A stretch of 64,000 nucleotides of DNA from Xanthobacter autotrophicus. Lineage in GTDB: Bacteria > Pseudomonadota > Alphaproteobacteria > Rhizobiales > Xanthobacteraceae. Location of the stretch: the NCBI RefSeq assembly GCF_030015065.1, contig NZ_JAIVFN010000007.1:1-64000 (forward strand). Direction: 5' to 3'. Below the pieces are notes generated by a model. That model made no database searches. It saw only the letters and a program-made list of their open reading frames with translations, and was not told the origin of the DNA. Each line of letters begins with the position of its first letter. The stretch's first letter is position 1. Shown here one piece after another: positions 54,961 through 64,000 of the stretch. The position numbers and the translations under genes were made by a program.

Positions 54961-55120
54961 CGTCCGGGTCCGACGGGCGGCAGCCCTCGATCGGACCGGA
55001 CCCGGCATCGGCCGGACCGGTCCGTCCTCCCGAGGGCCGGCCCCAGCAAGGCACCGCTGACGCTTTCCCGCGAACATGCTAGTCCTCCGCCGCCCCGACG
55101 GATCGGAAGGGAGTGACTTC

Positions 55121-57640
55121 ATGACGCGACTTTGGACCGGCGTTTCTTCCGCCGTGCTCGCCACCGCCTTGCTCTGGAGCGCCAGCGGCCAGGCCCAGCA
55201 GGCCCAGCCCGCAGCCGCCCAGCAGGGCGCCGGCCAGCAGACCTCCGGCCAGGACGCGTCAGGCCTTCAGGCCCCGCTGCCATGGCCGCGGGATTTCTCC
55301 CTCGCCGGCGACCAGATGCTTCAGCTCTACCAGCCCCAGGTCGACAGCTGGACCGGCGACGTGATGTCCGGCCGCGCGGCGGTGGCCATCGGGCCCAAGT
55401 CCGGCACCCCCACCTACGGCATGGTTCGGTTCTCGGCCCGCGTCGCCGTGGACAAGCCGGCCGGGCTCGTCCACCTCGCCACCCTCGCCATCGAGGGCGT
55501 GGAAGTGCCCACCGATCCGGCCAAGGCCGCCCTGATCCGCTCGACCCTCCAGTCGCGCCTGCCGGCGGACGGCATGACCGTGCCGCTCGACCAGTTGCAG
55601 GCGAGCTACGCGGTCAACCAGGAGCTGGCCAAGCTCAAGAGCCAGCCGGTGGACAACACCCCGCCGCAGATCCTGTTCACCGCCTCCACCACCGTGCTGG
55701 TGCCCGTGGCCGGCACGCCGGTGCTGCGCCCCATCGCCGGCGCCGGCACCTTCCAGCGCGTGGTCAACACACGCCCGCTGCTGCTGCTCGACGAGGCCGG
55801 CACCTACCACCTGGAGGCGGGCGGCCACTGGTACGAGAGCCCCAGCCTCACCGGCACCTGGATCCTCACGCCCCAGATCTCGGACGCGCTCTCCGCCGCC
55901 GCCAAGGCCGCGAGCCAGGAGCACGCCCCCGACCCGCTGCTCGACAGCAAGGGCAAGCCCATCAACCCGGCCCCGGCCATCATCGTCGCCACCCAGCCCA
56001 CCGAGCTGATCCAGACCGACGGTCCGGCGCAGATGCTGCCGGTGGCCGGCACCAACCTGCTCACCATGAACAATGCGGACCATGCCGTGTTCATGGAGAC
56101 CACCAGCAACACCTATTACGTGCTCGTCTCCGGCCGCTGGTTCCGCGCCCCCGACCTCAAGGGACCCTGGGCGTTCGTGGCGAGCAACGCGCTGCCGAAG
56201 GATTTCGCGAAGATCTCGCCCAACGACCCCAAGGCCAACGTGCTGGTCTCCGTGGCCGGCACCCCGCAGGCCAAGGAGGCGGCCATCGCCGCCACCATCC
56301 CGCAGACCGCCACGGTGAAGCGCGACGTGACGCTCAAGGTCGCGTTCGACGGCGCGCCGCGGTTCGAGCCCATCGCGGGCACCGCGCTCAGCTATGCCAT
56401 CAACACGCCGACACCGGTGATCCAGCTCGACGCCCAGCGCTATTATGCGGTGAACAACGGCATCTGGTTCGTCGCCGGGAGCGCCACCGGTCCCTGGCGG
56501 GTGGCGGACGTGGTTCCGGACGTGATCTACACGATCCCGGTCGCCTCGCCGCTGCATTACGTCACCTATGTGCGCATCTATGCCACCACCCCCGAGGCGG
56601 TGGTGGTGGGCTACACGCCGGGCTACATGGGCGTGGTGGTGGCGCCGGGCGGCACCGTGGTCTACGGCACCGGCTACACCTGCCCGGGCTATGTGGGGGC
56701 CTACTGGTTCTCCTGCCCGGTCACCTACGGCCTCGGCGCCGGCTTCGCGCTGGGCGTGGCGGACGGGTTCGCCTTCGGCTTCGCGGCAGGCTGGCCCTGG
56801 GGCGCGGCGGTCACGCCCTATTGGGGCCCGTACTGGGCCGCCGGCTATGGTCCCTACGGACCGTGGGGCGGCCACTGGGGCTACACCAACATCAACCAGG
56901 CCAACCTCTATGGCCGCTGGGGCGGCGCCGCCACCGTGAACCACGCCTGGGGCACCACCTGGAACGGCACCGAATGGTCCGGCCGCGACTGGCACGGCAC
57001 CACCGGGGGCGGCACCAGCTTCGCCGGCCGCTCGGGCGCCGCGTTCAACCCCTATACCGGCAATTACGCTGCCGGTGCCGAGAACGCCCGCTACAATCCC
57101 GCCACCGGCGCCCGCGGTGAATCCCGCGCCGGGGTGGAAGGCAACGTCTATACGGGCAATGCCGCCGCCGGCCGTGAATCGGCGGGCTACAACCCCACCA
57201 CCGGCACCGGCCACGCCTCCCAGACCGCCATCACCGACCAAGACGGCAAGGTCAGCGTGGACAGCCGTGGCGTCGCCGGCAATGCCAAGACCGGCAATGC
57301 GGTGGCCTGGAACAACGGCCATGTGGCCGTGGACCACGACGGCAACGTCTACCAGCATACGGATTCCGGCTGGGCCAAGAACACCGGGTCGGGCTGGCAG
57401 AACGTGGACCGCAACACTGACACCAGCCGCCTCGACGACGAGGAGCGCGCCCGTTCCGTGAGCCAGCAGCGGGTCTCCGGCTATGGCGGGGGCGAGCACT
57501 TCGGCGGCGAGGGCTTTGACGGCGGCGACCGCTTCGGCTCGGGCGGCTTCGACCGCGGCTTCGGCGGCTATGGCGGTGGCGACCGCTTCGGCGGAGGTGG
57601 CTTTGGCGGCGGCTTCCGGGGCGGCGGTTTCCGCCGCTGA
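55121..57640 (+). CDS. Large secreted repeat protein of unknown function
   Basis: This 839-residue protein has a signal peptide (to about residue 26, SGQAQQAQ) and a Gln/Ala-rich linker, then a conserved WPRDFSLAGDQMLQLYQPQVDSW segment. Three related modules follow, each starting with PVAGT or PIAGT and ending with a W-F/Y ... G-P/T-W turn: about residues 193-245, 304-352 and 413-464. Next comes a Gly/Tyr/Trp-rich block (about 500-650), short Tyr-Asn-Pro-x-Thr-Gly repeats (YNPATG, YNPTTG), and a Gly/Phe/Arg-rich tail (GGGDRFGGGG). It is probably periplasmic or surface-exposed. Relatives are sometimes labelled carbohydrate-binding, but I see no firm basis for that. Confidence 0.8.
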   Translation: MTRLWTGVSSAVLATALLWSASGQAQQAQPAAAQQGAGQQTSGQDASGLQAPLPWPRDFSLAGDQMLQLYQPQVDSWTGDVMSGRAAVAIGPKSGTPTYGMVRFSARVAVDKPAGLVHLATLAIEGVEVPTDPAKAALIRSTLQSRLPADGMTVPLDQLQASYAVNQELAKLKSQPVDNTPPQILFTASTTVLVPVAGTPVLRPIAGAGTFQRVVNTRPLLLLDEAGTYHLEAGGHWYESPSLTGTWILTPQISDALSAAAKAASQEHAPDPLLDSKGKPINPAPAIIVATQPTELIQTDGPAQMLPVAGTNLLTMNNADHAVFMETTSNTYYVLVSGRWFRAPDLKGPWAFVASNALPKDFAKISPNDPKANVLVSVAGTPQAKEAAIAATIPQTATVKRDVTLKVAFDGAPRFEPIAGTALSYAINTPTPVIQLDAQRYYAVNNGIWFVAGSATGPWRVADVVPDVIYTIPVASPLHYVTYVRIYATTPEAVVVGYTPGYMGVVVAPGGTVVYGTGYTCPGYVGAYWFSCPVTYGLGAGFALGVADGFAFGFAAGWPWGAAVTPYWGPYWAAGYGPYGPWGGHWGYTNINQANLYGRWGGAATVNHAWGTTWNGTEWSGRDWHGTTGGGTSFAGRSGAAFNPYTGNYAAGAENARYNPATGARGESRAGVEGNVYTGNAAAGRESAGYNPTTGTGHASQTAITDQDGKVSVDSRGVAGNAKTGNAVAWNNGHVAVDHDGNVYQHTDSGWAKNTGSGWQNVDRNTDTSRLDDEERARSVSQQRVSGYGGGEHFGGEGFDGGDRFGSGGFDRGFGGYGGGDRFGGGGFGGGFRGGGFRR

Positions 57641-57676: not shown

Positions 57677-59500
57677 TCAGGCCGCCTGCCGCAACCGGTC
57701 GCCTTCTCCCGCGAGGAGGCGCTGGACCCGGGTCGGGGCGAACTCCTCCGGCACGGCGCACAGGCGGGTGCGGATCGCGAACCGGGCGAGACGCGGATCG
57801 GCGGTGACGACGGTGAAGGGAATGGCGAGCCCATAGCCCGCCAGCACCGGCGCCGCCCACAGGATCAGCACCGGGGAGACGACGGCAAGCCCCGCCGTCA
57901 CCGCGAGGCCGAACACGGTCTGCGGCCAGAAGGCCCGCGCCGCCGTCGCCCAGCTCACCCCATGGCCGTCACGGGCCTGCGCCATCCAGCCGGAACGCGC
58001 CCGGCCGAGCATCAGGCGGACGATCTCCAGCGTCACCGCCACGGCGGTGATGGCCGACAGCAGGAAAGAGAACACCAGCTCCACCGCCACCGAGGCGGCA
58101 AAGCGCCAGCCACCGCCATAGCGCGCCACCCCGCCCGGGGTCAGTACCACGTCGGCGACGCCGGCAAGCTTCGGCGCCAAGGCAAGCAACATCATCCCGC
58201 CATAGAGGCCGAGGGCGAGGCCGACCGGGTAATGCGCCACCGACGCAGCCTCCGCCGCCGCGAAGGGCAGCAGCGCGACGAGCAGCGGATGGGCCGGCAC
58301 GGTCACGAACATGAGGATGGCCCACACCAGCTGGAAGCGGCTCATGGGCTCAAGGCCGGCGGCAAAGCCGGGCTGGGCGAGCAGACGCAGATATTGCAGG
58401 TTGCCGAGGCACCAGCGCAGGTCGCGCGACACGAAGTCGGTGACGGCCGGCGGGTTCTCCTCGTAGCTCTCGCTCTCCACTGGCAGAACGCGCACCTCGT
58501 AGCCGGCGCGGCGCATCAGCACCGCCTCCACCTGGTCGTGGGACAGGATCGGCCCGCCGAGCGGCGGCGCGCCGGGCAGATGCGGCAGATGGCAGAAGGC
58601 GCGGAACGGCGCGACGCGGATCAGCGCGTTATGGCCCCAGAACGGCCCGCACTCCCCGGCCCACCAGGAGGCGCCCAGGGTGTAGCAGCGCATGCCGTGT
58701 CGCATGCCGAACTGGAACATGCGGGCGAACGCGCTCCGCGCCGGCAGTCCCACCACCAGGCTCTGGAGAATGCCGAGGCGCGGATGGGCGGCCATCAGGC
58801 GCACCATGCGCAGGATGGTGGCGGCACCCATCAGGCTGTCGGCATCCAGCGGCAGCATGAAGTCGTAGCGCGCGCCGGCGCCAGTGCAGAAATCACGGAT
58901 GTTGCCGGCCTTGAAGTCGGTGTTCTCCGGCCGGCGGCGATAGAAGATGCGGGACGCCCCCTCCTCGCTCCGCCACGCGGCCACCGCCGCCTCCTCCGCC
59001 GCCGCGATCTCGGGACGCGAGGTGTCGCTGAGCACATGGAAATCGAACAGGGCGCCGTGGCCGCTGGCGTCGAGGTCGGCCTTCACCGCCCTGAGGCGCG
59101 CCAGCGCCCGCGCCGGGTCCTCGTTGCGCACGGTGAGCAGAATGGCGGTGCGCGCCGTGAGCGCGCCCTGCGGCTCCGGCGGGGCGAGGAAGGGCGCCGC
59201 CGCCTCCACCCCGCGCCGGCGGGCGTGCAGCAGCACGAGGCCGGTGAGCGCATTCCAGAACCCGATGGCATTCCACGGCGTTATGGCGAGCGCGCACAGG
59301 AGGATCAGGCCATCCACGAGGGTGAAGCCGCCATGGGACCCGAGCAGGGCGACGCCCGCCAGCACGGCGGCGAGTGTCGCGCCGTTGGCCGCCAGCATGA
59401 ACAGCCGGCGCCGCGCGAGTGCCGCCAGCGGCTGGAGCAAAGCCGGGGTGAAATCGGCGGCGGGGCTGACCTGCGGCGGTGGACCGGACCTCGAAGACAT
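57677..59500 (-). CDS. opgH: Glucans biosynthesis glucosyltransferase H (OpgH/MdoH)
   Basis: This 607-residue inner-membrane GT2 enzyme polymerises glucose from UDP-glucose into periplasmic glucans. The processive-transferase residues are present: LPLDADSLM (DxD), GPILSHDQVEAVLM (catalytic Asp) and SRDLRWCLGNLQY (QxxRW-like, with Arg for Gln). Several transmembrane helices lie at both ends. It is shorter than the roughly 850-residue E. coli enzyme, as usual in this class. No opgG neighbours it. The ATG at 59500 has GGAGC upstream; further upstream sequence in frame is not conserved. Confidence 0.92.
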   Translation of the reverse strand: MSSRSGPPPQVSPAADFTPALLQPLAALARRRLFMLAANGATLAAVLAGVALLGSHGGFTLVDGLILLCALAITPWNAIGFWNALTGLVLLHARRRGVEAAAPFLAPPEPQGALTARTAILLTVRNEDPARALARLRAVKADLDASGHGALFDFHVLSDTSRPEIAAAEEAAVAAWRSEEGASRIFYRRRPENTDFKAGNIRDFCTGAGARYDFMLPLDADSLMGAATILRMVRLMAAHPRLGILQSLVVGLPARSAFARMFQFGMRHGMRCYTLGASWWAGECGPFWGHNALIRVAPFRAFCHLPHLPGAPPLGGPILSHDQVEAVLMRRAGYEVRVLPVESESYEENPPAVTDFVSRDLRWCLGNLQYLRLLAQPGFAAGLEPMSRFQLVWAILMFVTVPAHPLLVALLPFAAAEAASVAHYPVGLALGLYGGMMLLALAPKLAGVADVVLTPGGVARYGGGWRFAASVAVELVFSFLLSAITAVAVTLEIVRLMLGRARSGWMAQARDGHGVSWATAARAFWPQTVFGLAVTAGLAVVSPVLILWAAPVLAGYGLAIPFTVVTADPRLARFAIRTRLCAVPEEFAPTRVQRLLAGEGDRLRQAA

Positions 59501-59606
59501 GCATAGCTCCACTTGCCGGAACCGGCGCAAGGCTGAAAACCCATTCCCGCGTCCGCTGCCCCGAAGGCGGCGGCTGCCCCCTGAAGCGCTATACGAAGGC
59601 AAAGGC

Positions 59607-60611
59607 ATGGCCGCCGCTGATGCGTCAAAATGTCTCGATCGCACCGAGAGCCGGGCGCTCTGGACCGTTGGCCCCGGCGCGGCCGCCTTGCGCGCCGAAG
59701 AGCTGGCCCCACCCGCATCCGACGAAGCGCGGGTCATCACCCTGTGGAGCGCCATCAGCCGCGGCACGGAACGCCTCGTATTCCAGGGCCTCGCCGACCC
59801 CGTCCACCGCGCGCGCATGCGCGCGCCCTTGCAGCAGGGCGACTTCCCCTTCCCGGTCAAATACGGCTATTGCGCGGTCGGCCGGGTGGAGGCGGGCCCC
59901 GAGGCGCTGAACGGCCGCCTCGTCTTCGCCCTCGCCCCGCACCAGACGCGCTTCAACGCCCCCGCATCCATGCTGACGCCGCTACCGGAGGGACTGCCGC
60001 CCCGCCGCGCGACCCTGGCCGCCAACATGGAAACCGCCCTCAACGCCCTGTGGGACGGGAGCGCCGGCCCCGGCGACCGCATCGTCGTGGTGGGGGCTGG
60101 CCTCGTCGGCCTGCTGGTGGCCTATCTCGCTGCCCGCCTGCCGGGGGCGGAGGTGACGGTGATCGATCCGGACACGAGCCGCGCGGGTCTGGCGCGGGCC
60201 TTCGGTTCCGCTTTCGCCTCGTCCGGCGAAGGGATTGCCGACGCCGACCTCGTCTTCCACACCAGCGGCAGCGCCGCGGGCCTTGCCACCGCGCTCGCCA
60301 GCTGCGGCGAGGAGGCCCGCATGGTGGAGATGAGCTGGTATGGCGACAAGGGCGTGAATGCGCAGCTCGGCGGCGCCTTCCACCACCGGCGCCTCCAGAT
60401 CGTCTCTTCGCAGGTGGGCATGGTGAGCCCTTCCCGCCGCCCGCGCTGGAGCCACCGCCGGCGGCTGGAGAAGGCTCTGGCGCTCCTCGCGGACCACGCC
60501 CTTGATGCGCTCATCACCGAGGAGGTGGCCTTCGACGATCTGCCGCAGGCCCTGCCGCGTATCCTTGCGGACGGGGCGGAAGGCATCGCCACGGTGGTGC
60601 GCTACAAGTGA
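59607..60611 (+). CDS. Medium-chain dehydrogenase, BchC-like, lacking usual zinc ligands
   Basis: This 334-residue MDR-superfamily oxidoreductase has the N-terminal domain SAISRGTERLVFQG, where ordinary zinc alcohol dehydrogenases have a Cys; the SRGTE form is seen in BchC-type enzymes. The nucleotide-binding motif is VVVGAGLVGLLVA (about residues 158-170), followed by EVTVIDPD. No four-cysteine structural zinc lobe is visible. It is the first gene of a four-gene set, 68 bp before the pterin-synthase homologue, and is divergent from opgH. It probably oxidises or reduces a secondary alcohol on the pathway's core; substrate unknown. Confidence 0.8.
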   Translation: MAAADASKCLDRTESRALWTVGPGAAALRAEELAPPASDEARVITLWSAISRGTERLVFQGLADPVHRARMRAPLQQGDFPFPVKYGYCAVGRVEAGPEALNGRLVFALAPHQTRFNAPASMLTPLPEGLPPRRATLAANMETALNALWDGSAGPGDRIVVVGAGLVGLLVAYLAARLPGAEVTVIDPDTSRAGLARAFGSAFASSGEGIADADLVFHTSGSAAGLATALASCGEEARMVEMSWYGDKGVNAQLGGAFHHRRLQIVSSQVGMVSPSRRPRWSHRRRLEKALALLADHALDALITEEVAFDDLPQALPRILADGAEGIATVVRYK

Positions 60612-60679
60612 TGCCGACGGCACCGGCGTCGGACACGCGCCGCGCGGGCCTGCCCCGGAACCCACCAAGGGAGTTGTGC

Positions 60680-61111
60680 ATGTATGCGGTAGAGGTGCGG
60701 GACCACATCATGATCGCCCACAGCTTCAAGGGCGCCCTGTTCGGCCCCGCCCAGGCGCTGCATGGCGCCACCTTCGTGGTGGACGTGGCCTTCTACCGCC
60801 GGGAACTGACCGCCGAAGGCGTGGTGGTGGACATCGGCCGCGCCCACGACGCGCTCAAGGCCGTGCTCGGCCCGCTGAACTACAGGAACCTTGACGAGGT
60901 GCCGGACTTCGCCGGCCGCAACACCACCACGGAAGTGCTGTGCCGCCACGTCTTCGACAAGATGGCGCAGGCCGCGCGCGCCGGCGAACTGGGCGCGGGC
61001 AGCGAGGCGCTCACCCGCATCCGCGTGACGCTGCACGAATCCCACGTGGCCCGCGCCTGGTACGAGGCGGACCTCGCCGCCGACGAAGCCTCGCTCCAGC
61101 TTTTGTCCTGA
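60680..61111 (+). CDS. 6-pyruvoyl-tetrahydropterin synthase/QueD homologue with altered active site
   Basis: This 143-residue protein has the PTPS tunnelling fold: MIAHSFKG (His14 = first zinc ligand), LHGATFVVDV (His28 = second ligand), GVVVDIGRAHDAL, NTTTEVLCRHVFD and RVTLHES (Glu120 = substrate-anchoring Glu). The HGH motif is HGA (Ala30 for the third zinc His), the catalytic Cys position is Ala24, and the Asp-His pair of the LDHxxLN motif reads Asn67-Tyr68. The usual lyase or epimerase chemistry is therefore unlikely. It may bind a pterin or catalyse a different step. AGGGAG precedes ATG 60680; the GT4 gene follows seven bases after its stop. Confidence 0.8.
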   Translation: MYAVEVRDHIMIAHSFKGALFGPAQALHGATFVVDVAFYRRELTAEGVVVDIGRAHDALKAVLGPLNYRNLDEVPDFAGRNTTTEVLCRHVFDKMAQAARAGELGAGSEALTRIRVTLHESHVARAWYEADLAADEASLQLLS

Positions 61112-61118
61112 GATCGCG

Positions 61119-62162
61119 ATGCCCGTCGCCCTCGTCCATCCCGGCCCGCTCGACACGCCCACCGGAGGCTATGCCTACGACCGGCGCGTGCTCGCCGAGC
61201 TTCGGAAGACGGGCGTGGACATCGCGCCCCTGAGCCTCGACGGCGCCTTCCCCACCCCGTCGGGAGCAGAGGTGGACGCCGCCCTCGCCCGGCTCGCGGC
61301 GACGCCGCCGGACACCCTCCTCCTCGGTGACGGCCTCGCCTTCGGCGCCCTGCCGGCGGACCGGTTGAAGGCGCTGGGCCGGCGGCTCGTCGCGCTCGTG
61401 CATCACCCTCTGGCGCTGGAGACGGGCCTGTCGGCGGATCTCGCCGACCAGCTCTTTGCGAGCGAGAAAGCGGTGCTGAACGCGGCCGACGCGGTGGTCA
61501 CCGTGAGCCCCGAGACCGGCCGCACCCTGGTGGCACGCTATGGCGTTTCCCGAGAGCGGCTGACATTGGCCGTGCCCGGCACCGAGCCCATGGCCCGCGT
61601 GCCCGCCGATGGCGAGCCGCCTCGCCTCATCGCCGTGGGCTCGCTGACCCCGCGCAAGGGCTACGACATCCTGTTCGACGCCCTGGACATGATCGCCGAC
61701 CTCGACTTCTCCCTCGCCATTGCCGGCGCATCCCATCTCGATCCCGTCACGGCCGAGAGGGTCGCCGCGCGGGCGGCGGCGGCCCCGCGCGGAAATGTCC
61801 GGCTGCTGGGCCAGCTCGACCGCGCCGACCTCGATGCCGCTTATGAAGAAGCCGACATCTTCGTGCACCCCTCGCTTTATGAGGGCTATGGCATGGTACT
61901 GGCGGAGGCCATGCGGCGCGGCCTGCCCGTGGTGTGCACCACCGGCGGCGCGGCGGGCGAGACGGTGCCCGACGGCGCCGGCCTCAAGGTGCCGCCCGGC
62001 GATGCCGTGGCCCTCGCGGAGGCGCTGCGCAGCCTCATCGCCGACCCGGCCAGGCGCCGATCCTACGCCGATGCCGCCTTCGCCGCCGGGCAGCAACTGC
62101 CCTCCTGGGCCGACACCGCCGCCATCGTCGGCCGGGTGCTGGCGAAAACGAGCCTTACGTGA
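61119..62162 (+). CDS. GT4-family glycosyltransferase
   Basis: This 347-residue GT-B glycosyltransferase has the N-terminal HPGPLDTPTGGYAYDRRV loop, ALVHHPLALE, and the C-terminal donor-binding region LIAVGSLTPRKGYDILFDAL (about residues 168-187) and HPSLYEGYGMVLAEAMRRGLPVV with the EX7E motif. It is soluble or peripheral. Its TGA overlaps the next gene's GTG start (GTGA), and it begins seven bases after the PTPS homologue, so the three are almost certainly co-translated. The acceptor may be the small molecule made by the neighbours, by analogy with pterin glycosyltransferases of cyanobacteria; that is inference. Confidence 0.87.
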   Translation: MPVALVHPGPLDTPTGGYAYDRRVLAELRKTGVDIAPLSLDGAFPTPSGAEVDAALARLAATPPDTLLLGDGLAFGALPADRLKALGRRLVALVHHPLALETGLSADLADQLFASEKAVLNAADAVVTVSPETGRTLVARYGVSRERLTLAVPGTEPMARVPADGEPPRLIAVGSLTPRKGYDILFDALDMIADLDFSLAIAGASHLDPVTAERVAARAAAAPRGNVRLLGQLDRADLDAAYEEADIFVHPSLYEGYGMVLAEAMRRGLPVVCTTGGAAGETVPDGAGLKVPPGDAVALAEALRSLIADPARRRSYADAAFAAGQQLPSWADTAAIVGRVLAKTSLT

Positions 62163-63013
62163 CCCAAGCCACCACCACCTTCTCCGAGGACTGGCTCGCC
62201 CTGCGCGAGCCGGCCGACCACCGCTCCCGCAACATGGCCCTGGAGGGCGAGCTCGCGCGCAGCCTTGAAGATGTGGAGGAGCAGCGCATCGTCGATCTCG
62301 GCGCCGGTTCGGGATCGAACCTGCGGGCGCTGGCGCCGCGCCTCGGGCCGCGCCAGCGCTGGGTGCTGATGGATCATGACGGCGCCCTCGCGCAGGCCGC
62401 CCGCGCCCGGCTGAAGACCTTCGCGGACACTTGGCGGGAGGCGGGCGACATGCTGGTCCTCACCCTCGGCGCGCGGGAGATCCGGGTGGAGTTCGCCATC
62501 GCCGATCTCGCCCGCGACCCCGCCGCCCCCCGCGCCTTCGCGCCGCATCTCGTCACCGCCTCGGCGTTCCATGATCTGGTCTCGGCCGAGTGGTGCGCGC
62601 GTTTTGCGGAGGGACTCGCCGGCTCGGGCATCCTCATCCACGCCGCCCTCATCTGCGACGGGCAGGATGCCTGGGCGCCGCCCCACCCGGCGGATGCCGC
62701 CATCGCGGCCGGCTTTCGCGCCCATCAGGGCATCGACAAGGGCTTCGGCCCGGCGCTGGGCCCCGACGCGGCGCAGGCGCTCGGCGCGGCGCTGGCGCGG
62801 GCCGGCTACGACGTGGGGCAGGCGCAGAGCCCATGGCGCCTCGTGCCCGGCGACCGAACGCTGATCGCCAGGCTCGCGGCCGGCACGGCAGCCGCCGCAG
62901 TGGAGAGCGGCCGCGTCGGCGCCGCCACCGCGCAGGACTGGGCCCGCCACCGGGCCAACGCGGACGCCTGCGTCATCGGCCACCTGGATCTTCTGGCGGT
63001 GCCGCGCGGCTGA
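62159..63013 (+). CDS. Class I SAM-dependent methyltransferase
   Basis: This 284-residue enzyme has methyltransferase motif I, RIVDLGAGSGSNLRALAPRL (about residues 42-61), followed by VLMDHDGALAQAA (motif II acidic residue), and a segment ASAFHDLVSAEW resembling motif IV. The start is GTG at 62159, overlapping the GT4 stop by four bases. It closes the four-gene set. It could methylate the glycosylated product or the sugar; nothing in the sequence settles this. A hairpin repeat follows and ftsY is convergent. Confidence 0.85.
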   Translation: MTQATTTFSEDWLALREPADHRSRNMALEGELARSLEDVEEQRIVDLGAGSGSNLRALAPRLGPRQRWVLMDHDGALAQAARARLKTFADTWREAGDMLVLTLGAREIRVEFAIADLARDPAAPRAFAPHLVTASAFHDLVSAEWCARFAEGLAGSGILIHAALICDGQDAWAPPHPADAAIAAGFRAHQGIDKGFGPALGPDAAQALGAALARAGYDVGQAQSPWRLVPGDRTLIARLAAGTAAAAVESGRVGAATAQDWARHRANADACVIGHLDLLAVPRG

Positions 63014-63106: not shown

Positions 63107-64000
63107 TCAGTCCAGCCCGGCGATGGCGCGGGCGAAGTCGCGGGCGGCGAAGGGCTGGAGGTCCTCGGCCGCCTCGCCCACGCCGATGAGGTGCACCGGC
63201 AGCTTGTGCTTGGCCGCGATGGCCACCAGGATGCCGCCCCGCGCCGTGCCGTCGAGCTTGGTCATGACCAGCCCGGTCACCCCGGCGATGCGGGTGAAGG
63301 CTTCCACCTGCGACAGCGCGTTCTGGCCCACCGTGGCGTCGAGCACCAGCAGCACCGCATGGGGCGCCGAGGGCTCCAGCTTCTTGATGACGCGCACCAC
63401 CTTCTCCAGCTCCGCCATCAGCTCGGTGCGGTTCTGGAGCCGGCCGGCGGTGTCCACCATGAGGATGTCGGCCCCGGCCTCGCGTGCCTCCACCACCGCC
63501 TCATGGGCGACGCCGGCGGCGTCCGAGCCCTGCTCGCGGGCGATGACGGTGGCCCCGGTACGGGCACCCCACACCTTCAGCTGCTCGATGGCGGCGGCGC
63601 GGAAGGTGTCGCCGGCGGCGAGCACCACCTTCCTGCCCTCGCTCCGCCACTGGGCGGCGAGCTTGCCGATGGTGGTGGTCTTGCCGGAACCGTTGACCCC
63701 CACCATCAGCACCACGAAGGGCTTGTGCGCCGTGTCCACCACCAGCGGCTTCGCCACGGGGGCGAGGATGCGCTCCACCTCCTCCGCGATGAGGCTCTTC
63801 ACCTCCTCGGGGGAGATCATCTTGTCGTGCCGGCCCTTGCCCACGGATTCCACGATGCGCATGGCGGTCTCCACGCCGAGGTCGGCGCGGATGAGCACAT
63901 CCTCCAGCTCCTCCAGCGTCTCGGCATCAAGCTTGCGCTTGGAGACGAGGTCGGTGATGCCCTGCCCAAGGCTCGATGCCGTGCGCGCGAGCCCCGAGGC
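63107..64000 (-). CDS. ftsY: Signal recognition particle receptor FtsY (5' end outside window)
   Basis: The visible 297 residues are the NG domain of the SRP receptor GTPase, which docks ribosome-SRP complexes at the membrane. The N-domain helices ([33 protein letters not shown]) read through from the window edge, so the gene starts beyond 64000. GTPase motifs are [15 protein letters not shown] (P-loop), [19 protein letters not shown] and [10 protein letters not shown], and the end [12 protein letters not shown] is typical. A GTG at 63898 is internal, not the start. Confidence 0.97.

Follow-up and report, generated by a model that had tools for sequence, protein, structure and literature searches.

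A co-inherited gene set around an SCO6650-type PTPS-fold protein in Xanthobacter autotrophicus and its candidate GTP-derived pathway

Described relatives and the Xanthobacter operon

This study concerns a four-gene operon of Xanthobacter autotrophicus encoding a dehydrogenase, a protein with the fold of 6-pyruvoyltetrahydropterin synthase (PTPS), a GT4 glycosyltransferase and a methyltransferase. The operon lies on the plus strand of the window, which denotes the whole stretch of 64,000 nucleotides that was analysed (C7:1-64000 of a 5.04 Mb draft genome, 99.89% complete). The closest described relative is SCO6650 of Streptomyces coelicolor (solved structure 3d7j), which is of the same PTPS type as the product of the second gene. 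SCO6650 presumably lacks both the zinc site and the catalytic triad, and to our knowledge it has no known function. A protein encoded on a Streptomyces fungicidicus plasmid is about 92% identical to SCO6650, and its gene adjoins genes for a dehydrogenase, a GT4, a methyltransferase, a CDP-alcohol phosphatidyltransferase, a creatininase and a Met-type RibA. These Streptomyces relatives have been described in part. The Xanthobacter set differs from the Streptomyces plasmid set in having an OpgH-like GT2 enzyme instead of the CDP-alcohol phosphatidyltransferase, a RibA of the Tyr type, and RibA and RibD_C genes on another contig. No paper was recognised as describing the gene set as a pathway among open-licence papers, most subscription journals lying outside the search; one paper, PMC2853524, names the Streptomyces protein SCO6655.

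The four genes form a compact unit, with gaps of 68, 7 and -4 bases (open reading frame, ORF, coordinates) and a GTGA overlap at 62159-62162. A preliminary description had placed this operon between opgH and ftsY, and its coordinates, strand and gaps were all correct. The first gene (59607..60611, plus strand) encodes a medium-chain dehydrogenase. It had been called BchC-like, which holds as a distant resemblance, but its score against the NCBIfam BchC equivalog (47.7 bits) is far under the cut-off of 291.25. Its structural model (pLDDT 91.4) matches zinc alcohol dehydrogenases and their relatives at a TM score of about 0.75. In an alignment of 34 homologues, three His columns are conserved (112, 218 and 259) and no Cys column is; the Cys-His-Cys catalytic zinc site usual for such enzymes is therefore missing. 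The third gene (61119..62162, plus strand) encodes a GT4-type glycosyltransferase (PF00534, 108.4 bits) whose E-x7-E motif corresponds to the conserved columns Glu255 and Glu263. It falls within a large general family, its nearest solved structures being 6kih and 7qsg, and in its GT4-type fold it resembles the cyanobacterial pterin glucosyltransferase BGluT. The fourth gene (62159..63013, plus strand) belongs to an unnamed family: its only family match, to PF13649, scores 22.4 bits, under the cut-off of 27. Its predicted structure (mean pLDDT 96.9) retrieves S-adenosylmethionine (SAM) methyltransferases in Foldseek, with TM scores of up to 0.60 among the 50 matches listed, and on this modelled structure it has the fold of a class I SAM methyltransferase.

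The second gene (60680..61111, plus strand) encodes a member of the PTPS/QueD family PF01242 (81.8 bits, cut-off 22.4), with its nearest relatives, from Xanthobacter, at 93-97% identity. Among solved structures, 3d7j is the closest by a wide interval (E 1.6e-44, the next at E 0.0038); residues 1-130 align to it, and the stretches AQ-LHGAT and LNYRNLD are common to both. Residues were counted in 140 SCO6650-type sequences, namely those of the window, 80 near loci, 44 distant loci and 15 plasmid loci, with the roles of the family's residues in zinc binding, the triad and pterin anchoring being those that we take to apply. The catalytic Cys is replaced by Ala in all 140. His28 is the one zinc-binding His retained; a second position is Ala in 140 of 140, and at the third at least 118 sequences carry Leu, Val or Phe. 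At the position of the triad Asp, Asn is found in 110 sequences and Asp in six, and the triad His is replaced by Tyr in 131 and by Phe in eight. The pterin-anchoring Glu of PTPS and QueD is present throughout, with Glu120 and Glu85 in 140 of 140 and Thr83 in 133. The protein thus shares with PTPS and QueD the fold family, the pterin Glu, the Thr and one zinc His, whereas two of the three zinc-binding His and the Cys are lost and the Asp and His of the Cys-Asp-His triad are mostly replaced. Because of these losses it cannot act as PTPS or QueD do, and by its residues it is neither enzyme. It does retain residues that, by their roles in the family, hold a pterin-like ring. The earlier designation as a PTPS homologue was sound as to fold but overlooked the solved relative.

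Solitary SCO6650-type homologues also occur. On three Streptomyces plasmids (L120, L172 and L175), whose proteins are among the 140 counted, the PTPS homologue stands alone, without the operon. Genes of MBL-fold and cupin type lie near it in L120 and L172, where both kinds were seen, and in L175.

Co-inheritance of the four genes

The distribution of the genes was determined in 385 alphaproteobacterial genomes drawn evenly from the class, which gives a fairer count than the near loci (the best 80 of 509, many of which stop at contig edges). With cut-offs of E <=1e-12 for the PTPS homologue, E <=1e-40 for the dehydrogenase and E <=1e-15 for the methyltransferase, the PTPS homologue was found in 45 genomes, and the dehydrogenase in the identical 45 and nowhere else. 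The methyltransferase was found in 40, all within these 45; at its cut-off it was not found in the operon genomes G053, G246, G277, G326 and G355. At least six families (f1, f2, f16, f30, f37 and f68) mix genomes with and without the gene set.

All 80 near loci carry the PTPS homologue, 78 the GT4, 71 the methyltransferase and 64 the dehydrogenase. In a distant sample of 44 loci fetched from other genomes of the class sample, the dehydrogenase was present in 43, the GT4 in 42 and the methyltransferase in 38, and all four genes were found in 37 loci. In each of these 37 they share a single strand, and in 35 the order is dehydrogenase-GT4-methyltransferase. The sole distant locus lacking the dehydrogenase stops at a contig edge, and the dehydrogenase is on another contig there. 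The set recurs beyond the Alphaproteobacteria, on one gammaproteobacterial plasmid and on actinobacterial plasmids. Mere synteny can be rejected, since the set persists on plasmids and in distant orders, and since in G035 and G233 the dehydrogenase or the methyltransferase is present though apart from the PTPS gene. The four genes are inherited as a unit and are kept together in related genomes. Neither outcome that the preliminary description had named as a refutation was observed: the genes are not scattered in relatives, and the PTPS homologue and the GT4 do not belong to unrelated groups with other partners.

Two records are of separate interest. In one metagenome bin, H4_Bin_MAXBIN__051_1, the cluster was found twice, on separate contigs (L051 and L063). 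A record titled Oceanobacillus sp. HTM 045 (L072) carries an alphaproteobacterial-type cluster with 74% PTPS identity, and its name may be wrong.

Linked RibA and RibD_C genes and two membrane partners

Further genes recur around the operon in the 44 distant loci, at distances of up to about 9 kb. The reductase domain protein RibD_C was found in 35 and RibA (GTP cyclohydrolase II) in 18, followed by a CDP-alcohol phosphatidyltransferase (13), YceI (12), an OpgH-like GT2 (10), cytochrome b561 (9), creatininase (8), an FkbM methyltransferase (6) and a sulfatase-like gene (5). Pfam confirmed single examples of YceI, creatininase, RibD_C, cytochrome b561 and the CDP-alcohol phosphatidyltransferase, and gave no match for the sulfatase-like protein. 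The one YceI-family gene tested lies at L157 5663-6283 (PF04264, 136 bits), with others in 11 further distant loci. For two of these neighbours, YceI and cytochrome b561, the scheme proposed below offers no firm role.

Plasmid neighbourhoods were tallied in 12 of 15 fetched loci, the three solitary Streptomyces cases being excluded. Annotated plasmids of Agrobacterium, Peteryoungia and Rhizobium carry the cluster with RibA, CDP-alcohol phosphatidyltransferase, flippase-like and sulfatase genes. The Thiodictyon plasmid has the CDP-alcohol phosphatidyltransferase and RibD, the Microbacterium plasmid these two and a flippase-like gene, in both cases with RibA not nearby; on the Streptomyces plasmid the CDP-alcohol phosphatidyltransferase, creatininase and RibA are present and RibD is not nearby. 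In Xanthobacter the cluster is split, since a cassette of cytochrome b561, RibD_C and RibA sits on contig C22, separate from the operon. The preliminary description had guessed at an extra GTP cyclohydrolase; one does belong to the set, but it is the type II enzyme (RibA) and not type I, and a RibD_C reductase accompanies it.

The RibA alignment comprises 60 rows, with the RibA of the Xanthobacter cassette entered three times. The three zinc Cys are intact in 57; two rows are too short, and the remaining one is the second GTP cyclohydrolase II of the same genome, a RibBA (L084, G000 C83:17388-17837) that has lost the zinc cysteines of this domain. The C22 RibA (L083/L169) is thus the sole one of the two with an intact zinc site, and it has the zinc cysteines as well as the switch residue (Tyr or Met) expected of a GTP cyclohydrolase II. 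At the switch position 54 rows have Tyr and five a gap; Met occurs once, in the Streptomyces row, where a creatininase gene is found too. We take SCO6655 to be a Met-type GTP cyclohydrolase II paralogue that makes a formylated pyrimidine through this Met switch. RibD_C proteins from four genomes, including Xanthobacter, match RibD_C alone in Pfam, and the deaminase domain was not found in them, which suggests, from sequence, that the 2-amino group would be retained. Some loci resemble the riboflavin pathway (RibA, RibD reductase domain and BrbF formamidase) in having an intact-Cys RibA, RibD_C and creatininase; PMC9478397 shows that the formyl group of the formylated GTP product is removed by an enzyme of the creatininase family. 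Unlike in that pathway, the four tested RibD_C proteins lack the deaminase domain and their genes are joined to those of the PTPS-fold protein, GT4 and methyltransferase. Moreover, Xanthobacter has a separate, full-length ribD and lumazine/riboflavin synthase-like ORFs on contig C1, identified by eye.

Divergent from the operon lies the gene of the OpgH-like membrane GT2 enzyme (57677..59500, minus strand, 607 residues). This gene had been taken as a flank; its subfamily, however, is specific to operon-bearing genomes. At 472 bits or more, the subfamily occurs in 19 of the 385 genomes, all 19 operon-bearing, with the next match at 366 bits; in several of the 19 the gene is far from the operon. 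Generic OpgH proteins (220-322 bits) are also found in genomes without the operon. At a threshold of at least 40 bits, an OpgH-like gene is near the operon in 58 of the 80 near loci, three of them scoring under 260 bits, as well as in the 10 distant loci. Asp 159, 219, 221 and 322 and the RxxRW motif at 359-363 are kept in 67 of 67 aligned sequences.

The operon-linked type of CDP-alcohol phosphatidyltransferase, whose motif is kept in six aligned seeds, shows a comparable pattern. It reaches 137 bits or more in 23 genomes (the next match scores 60), 22 of them operon-bearing; the exception, lacking the PTPS homologue, is G127, which is 74% complete. Counting all matches including weak ones, OpgH-like proteins occur in 66 genomes and CDP-alcohol phosphatidyltransferases in 112; given the sharp score gaps, the weak matches are read as generic family members. 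No operon genome (0 of 45) has both partners, and of the 26 operon genomes without the OpgH subfamily 22 carry the CDP-alcohol phosphatidyltransferase. The probabilities calculated for this pattern take no account of phylogeny, and in families f17, f62 and f132 both types occur, in different members. Two of the near loci apparently have both. One (L060) is a false double, consisting of a full OpgH-like gene and a generic CDP-alcohol phosphatidyltransferase (44 bits). In the other (L018 4309-6884, Microvirga tunisiensis), a CDP-alcohol phosphatidyltransferase of 205 bits adjoins an OpgH-like fragment (50 bits, 76-codon ORF), as if one membrane partner had been replaced by the other; this locus also holds FkbM and sulfatase-like genes. 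Most simply, both enzymes would act at one and the same late step, or they would complete a common core differently.

Proposed pathway and rival explanations

The gene set very probably serves one dedicated pathway; the preliminary description had proposed a dedicated small-molecule route, and co-inheritance together with the genes staying together supports it. We infer the individual reactions, their order and the product as follows. RibA would open GTP to 2,5-diamino-6-ribosylamino-pyrimidinone 5'-phosphate, in Streptomyces possibly in two steps by the Met-type RibA and a creatininase-type formamidase. The stand-alone RibD_C, having no deaminase domain, would then reduce the ribosyl to a ribityl chain, with the 2-amino group kept, a mark of pterins rather than flavins. 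The PTPS-fold protein may hold this diaminopyrimidine, or a pterin derived from it, through its invariant Glu, and its chemistry would be new and zinc-independent. The zinc-less dehydrogenase could oxidise or reduce an alcohol or ketone, after which the GT4 would attach a sugar and the methyltransferase a methyl group. Finally, a membrane enzyme would complete the product. In Xanthobacter and similar genomes this would be the OpgH-like GT2, and in others the CDP-alcohol phosphatidyltransferase, in some genomes with flippase-like and sulfatase-like partners.

A start from GTP through RibA and RibD_C is probable, and completion at the membrane is about an even prospect. Taken together, we lean towards a dedicated GTP-derived pathway ending at the membrane and yielding a glycosylated, probably methylated, conjugate of pyrimidine or pterin type. 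A glycosylated pterin, or a methylated one, as the preliminary description had suggested, is a possible product, and any exact structure would be doubtful. More tentatively, the product could belong to a new class of glycoconjugate, a pteridine or diaminopyrimidine anchored in the membrane. Its GTP-derived head group would be ribitylated without deamination, glycosylated and methylated; the OpgH-like enzyme would then join it to a glucan, or the CDP-alcohol phosphatidyltransferase would join it to a phosphatidyl group. The class would comprise two chemotypes of one core, and it might be a lipid-bound redox carrier working with the linked cytochrome b561. The mutual exclusion of the membrane enzymes makes a sharp prediction of the product's destination. 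An apparently complete pathway would be present in 45 of the 385 sampled alphaproteobacterial genomes, about one in nine, and on actinobacterial and gammaproteobacterial plasmids. For SCO6650, a PTPS homologue whose structure has been solved, it would supply a testable pathway context, and it is hidden by public labels that refer to queuosine, zinc-dehydrogenase and glucan genes.

Several observations weigh against the proposed pathway. The 18 distant loci with RibA near the operon are a minority, and the C22 RibA may simply serve riboflavin, since RibBA has lost its zinc cysteines. RibD_C is not near the operon in nine of the 44 distant loci, nor in the Streptomyces plasmid cluster. In six creatininase-linked RibA rows the switch position holds Tyr and not Met; the pairing of Met with creatininase is thus not strict, and a two-step route fits the Streptomyces row alone. 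Among structures, the Agrobacterium plasmid RibD_C matches 2azn at 84 bits, with the fused deaminase/reductase 2hxv close behind at 74 bits and 6p8c at 73, so that direct reduction of the diamino compound is only weakly supported by these matches. The OpgH-like protein passes the NCBI MdoH model (1005 bits, cut-off 884). Lastly, four of the 45 operon genomes have neither membrane partner, namely G064 (68% complete) and the distant small genomes G161, G259 and G337.

If RibA and RibD_C were merely neighbours, the product could be a glycosylated, methylated pterin made from dihydroneopterin triphosphate by the GTP cyclohydrolase I route. Pterin glycosides occur in other bacteria, and the retained pterin-anchoring Glu and nearby Thr would suit such a substrate. 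This route is nevertheless unlikely, as the PTPS homologue has lost the Cys, the zinc His and most of the triad, RibD_C recurs near the operon, and the recurrent cyclohydrolase is of type II, although the loci were not searched for GTP cyclohydrolase I. RibA and RibD_C could also supply only riboflavin, with the four genes and the OpgH-like enzyme acting on a glycan or lipid of the envelope that is unrelated to GTP. The probable role of the C22 RibA in riboflavin synthesis speaks for this, and the GT2, GT4, methyltransferase, flippase-like and CDP-alcohol phosphatidyltransferase genes suit envelope chemistry. Such a role is improbable, however, because RibD_C is linked to the operon in 35 of the 44 distant loci despite the full-length ribD in Xanthobacter, and glycan work offers no obvious place for a PTPS-fold protein whose pterin Glu is invariant.

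The likeness to OpgH/MdoH invites another explanation, in which OpgH makes osmoregulated periplasmic glucans and the set adds decorations to them. The OpgH-like neighbour passes the MdoH model and is linked in many genomes; on the other hand, OpgG/MdoG (PF04349) gave no match in the Xanthobacter draft genome (of 14 controls, E. coli alone matched), the subfamily is confined to operon genomes, and most operon genomes do without it, nearly all of these carrying the CDP-alcohol phosphatidyltransferase. Periplasmic glucan decoration is thus very improbable. There is hardly any likelihood that the PTPS homologue is a second QueD, with the operon serving queuosine or another 7-deazapurine. Twelve of 20 plasmid matches are publicly annotated as 6-carboxytetrahydropterin synthase, but the QueD model gives the Xanthobacter protein 39.7 bits against a cut-off of 89.25, its catalytic residues are gone, and the genome carries a second PF01242 gene, a canonical QueD adjoining a QueE-like ORF on contig C15. 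A queuosine role was ruled out by the residue losses and this separate QueD.

The remaining features lie around the operon. The stretch between the OpgH-like gene and the operon (59501..59606) presumably carries the promoters. An RNA control element was rejected, as no Rfam match at gathering score was found in seven loci, one of which (L170) covers this stretch. Downstream, ftsY flanks the operon on the minus strand (63107..63898, longest ORF listed). Upstream of the OpgH-like gene, an 854-residue ORF with a Gly-rich C-terminus is found at 55076-57640 on the plus strand.

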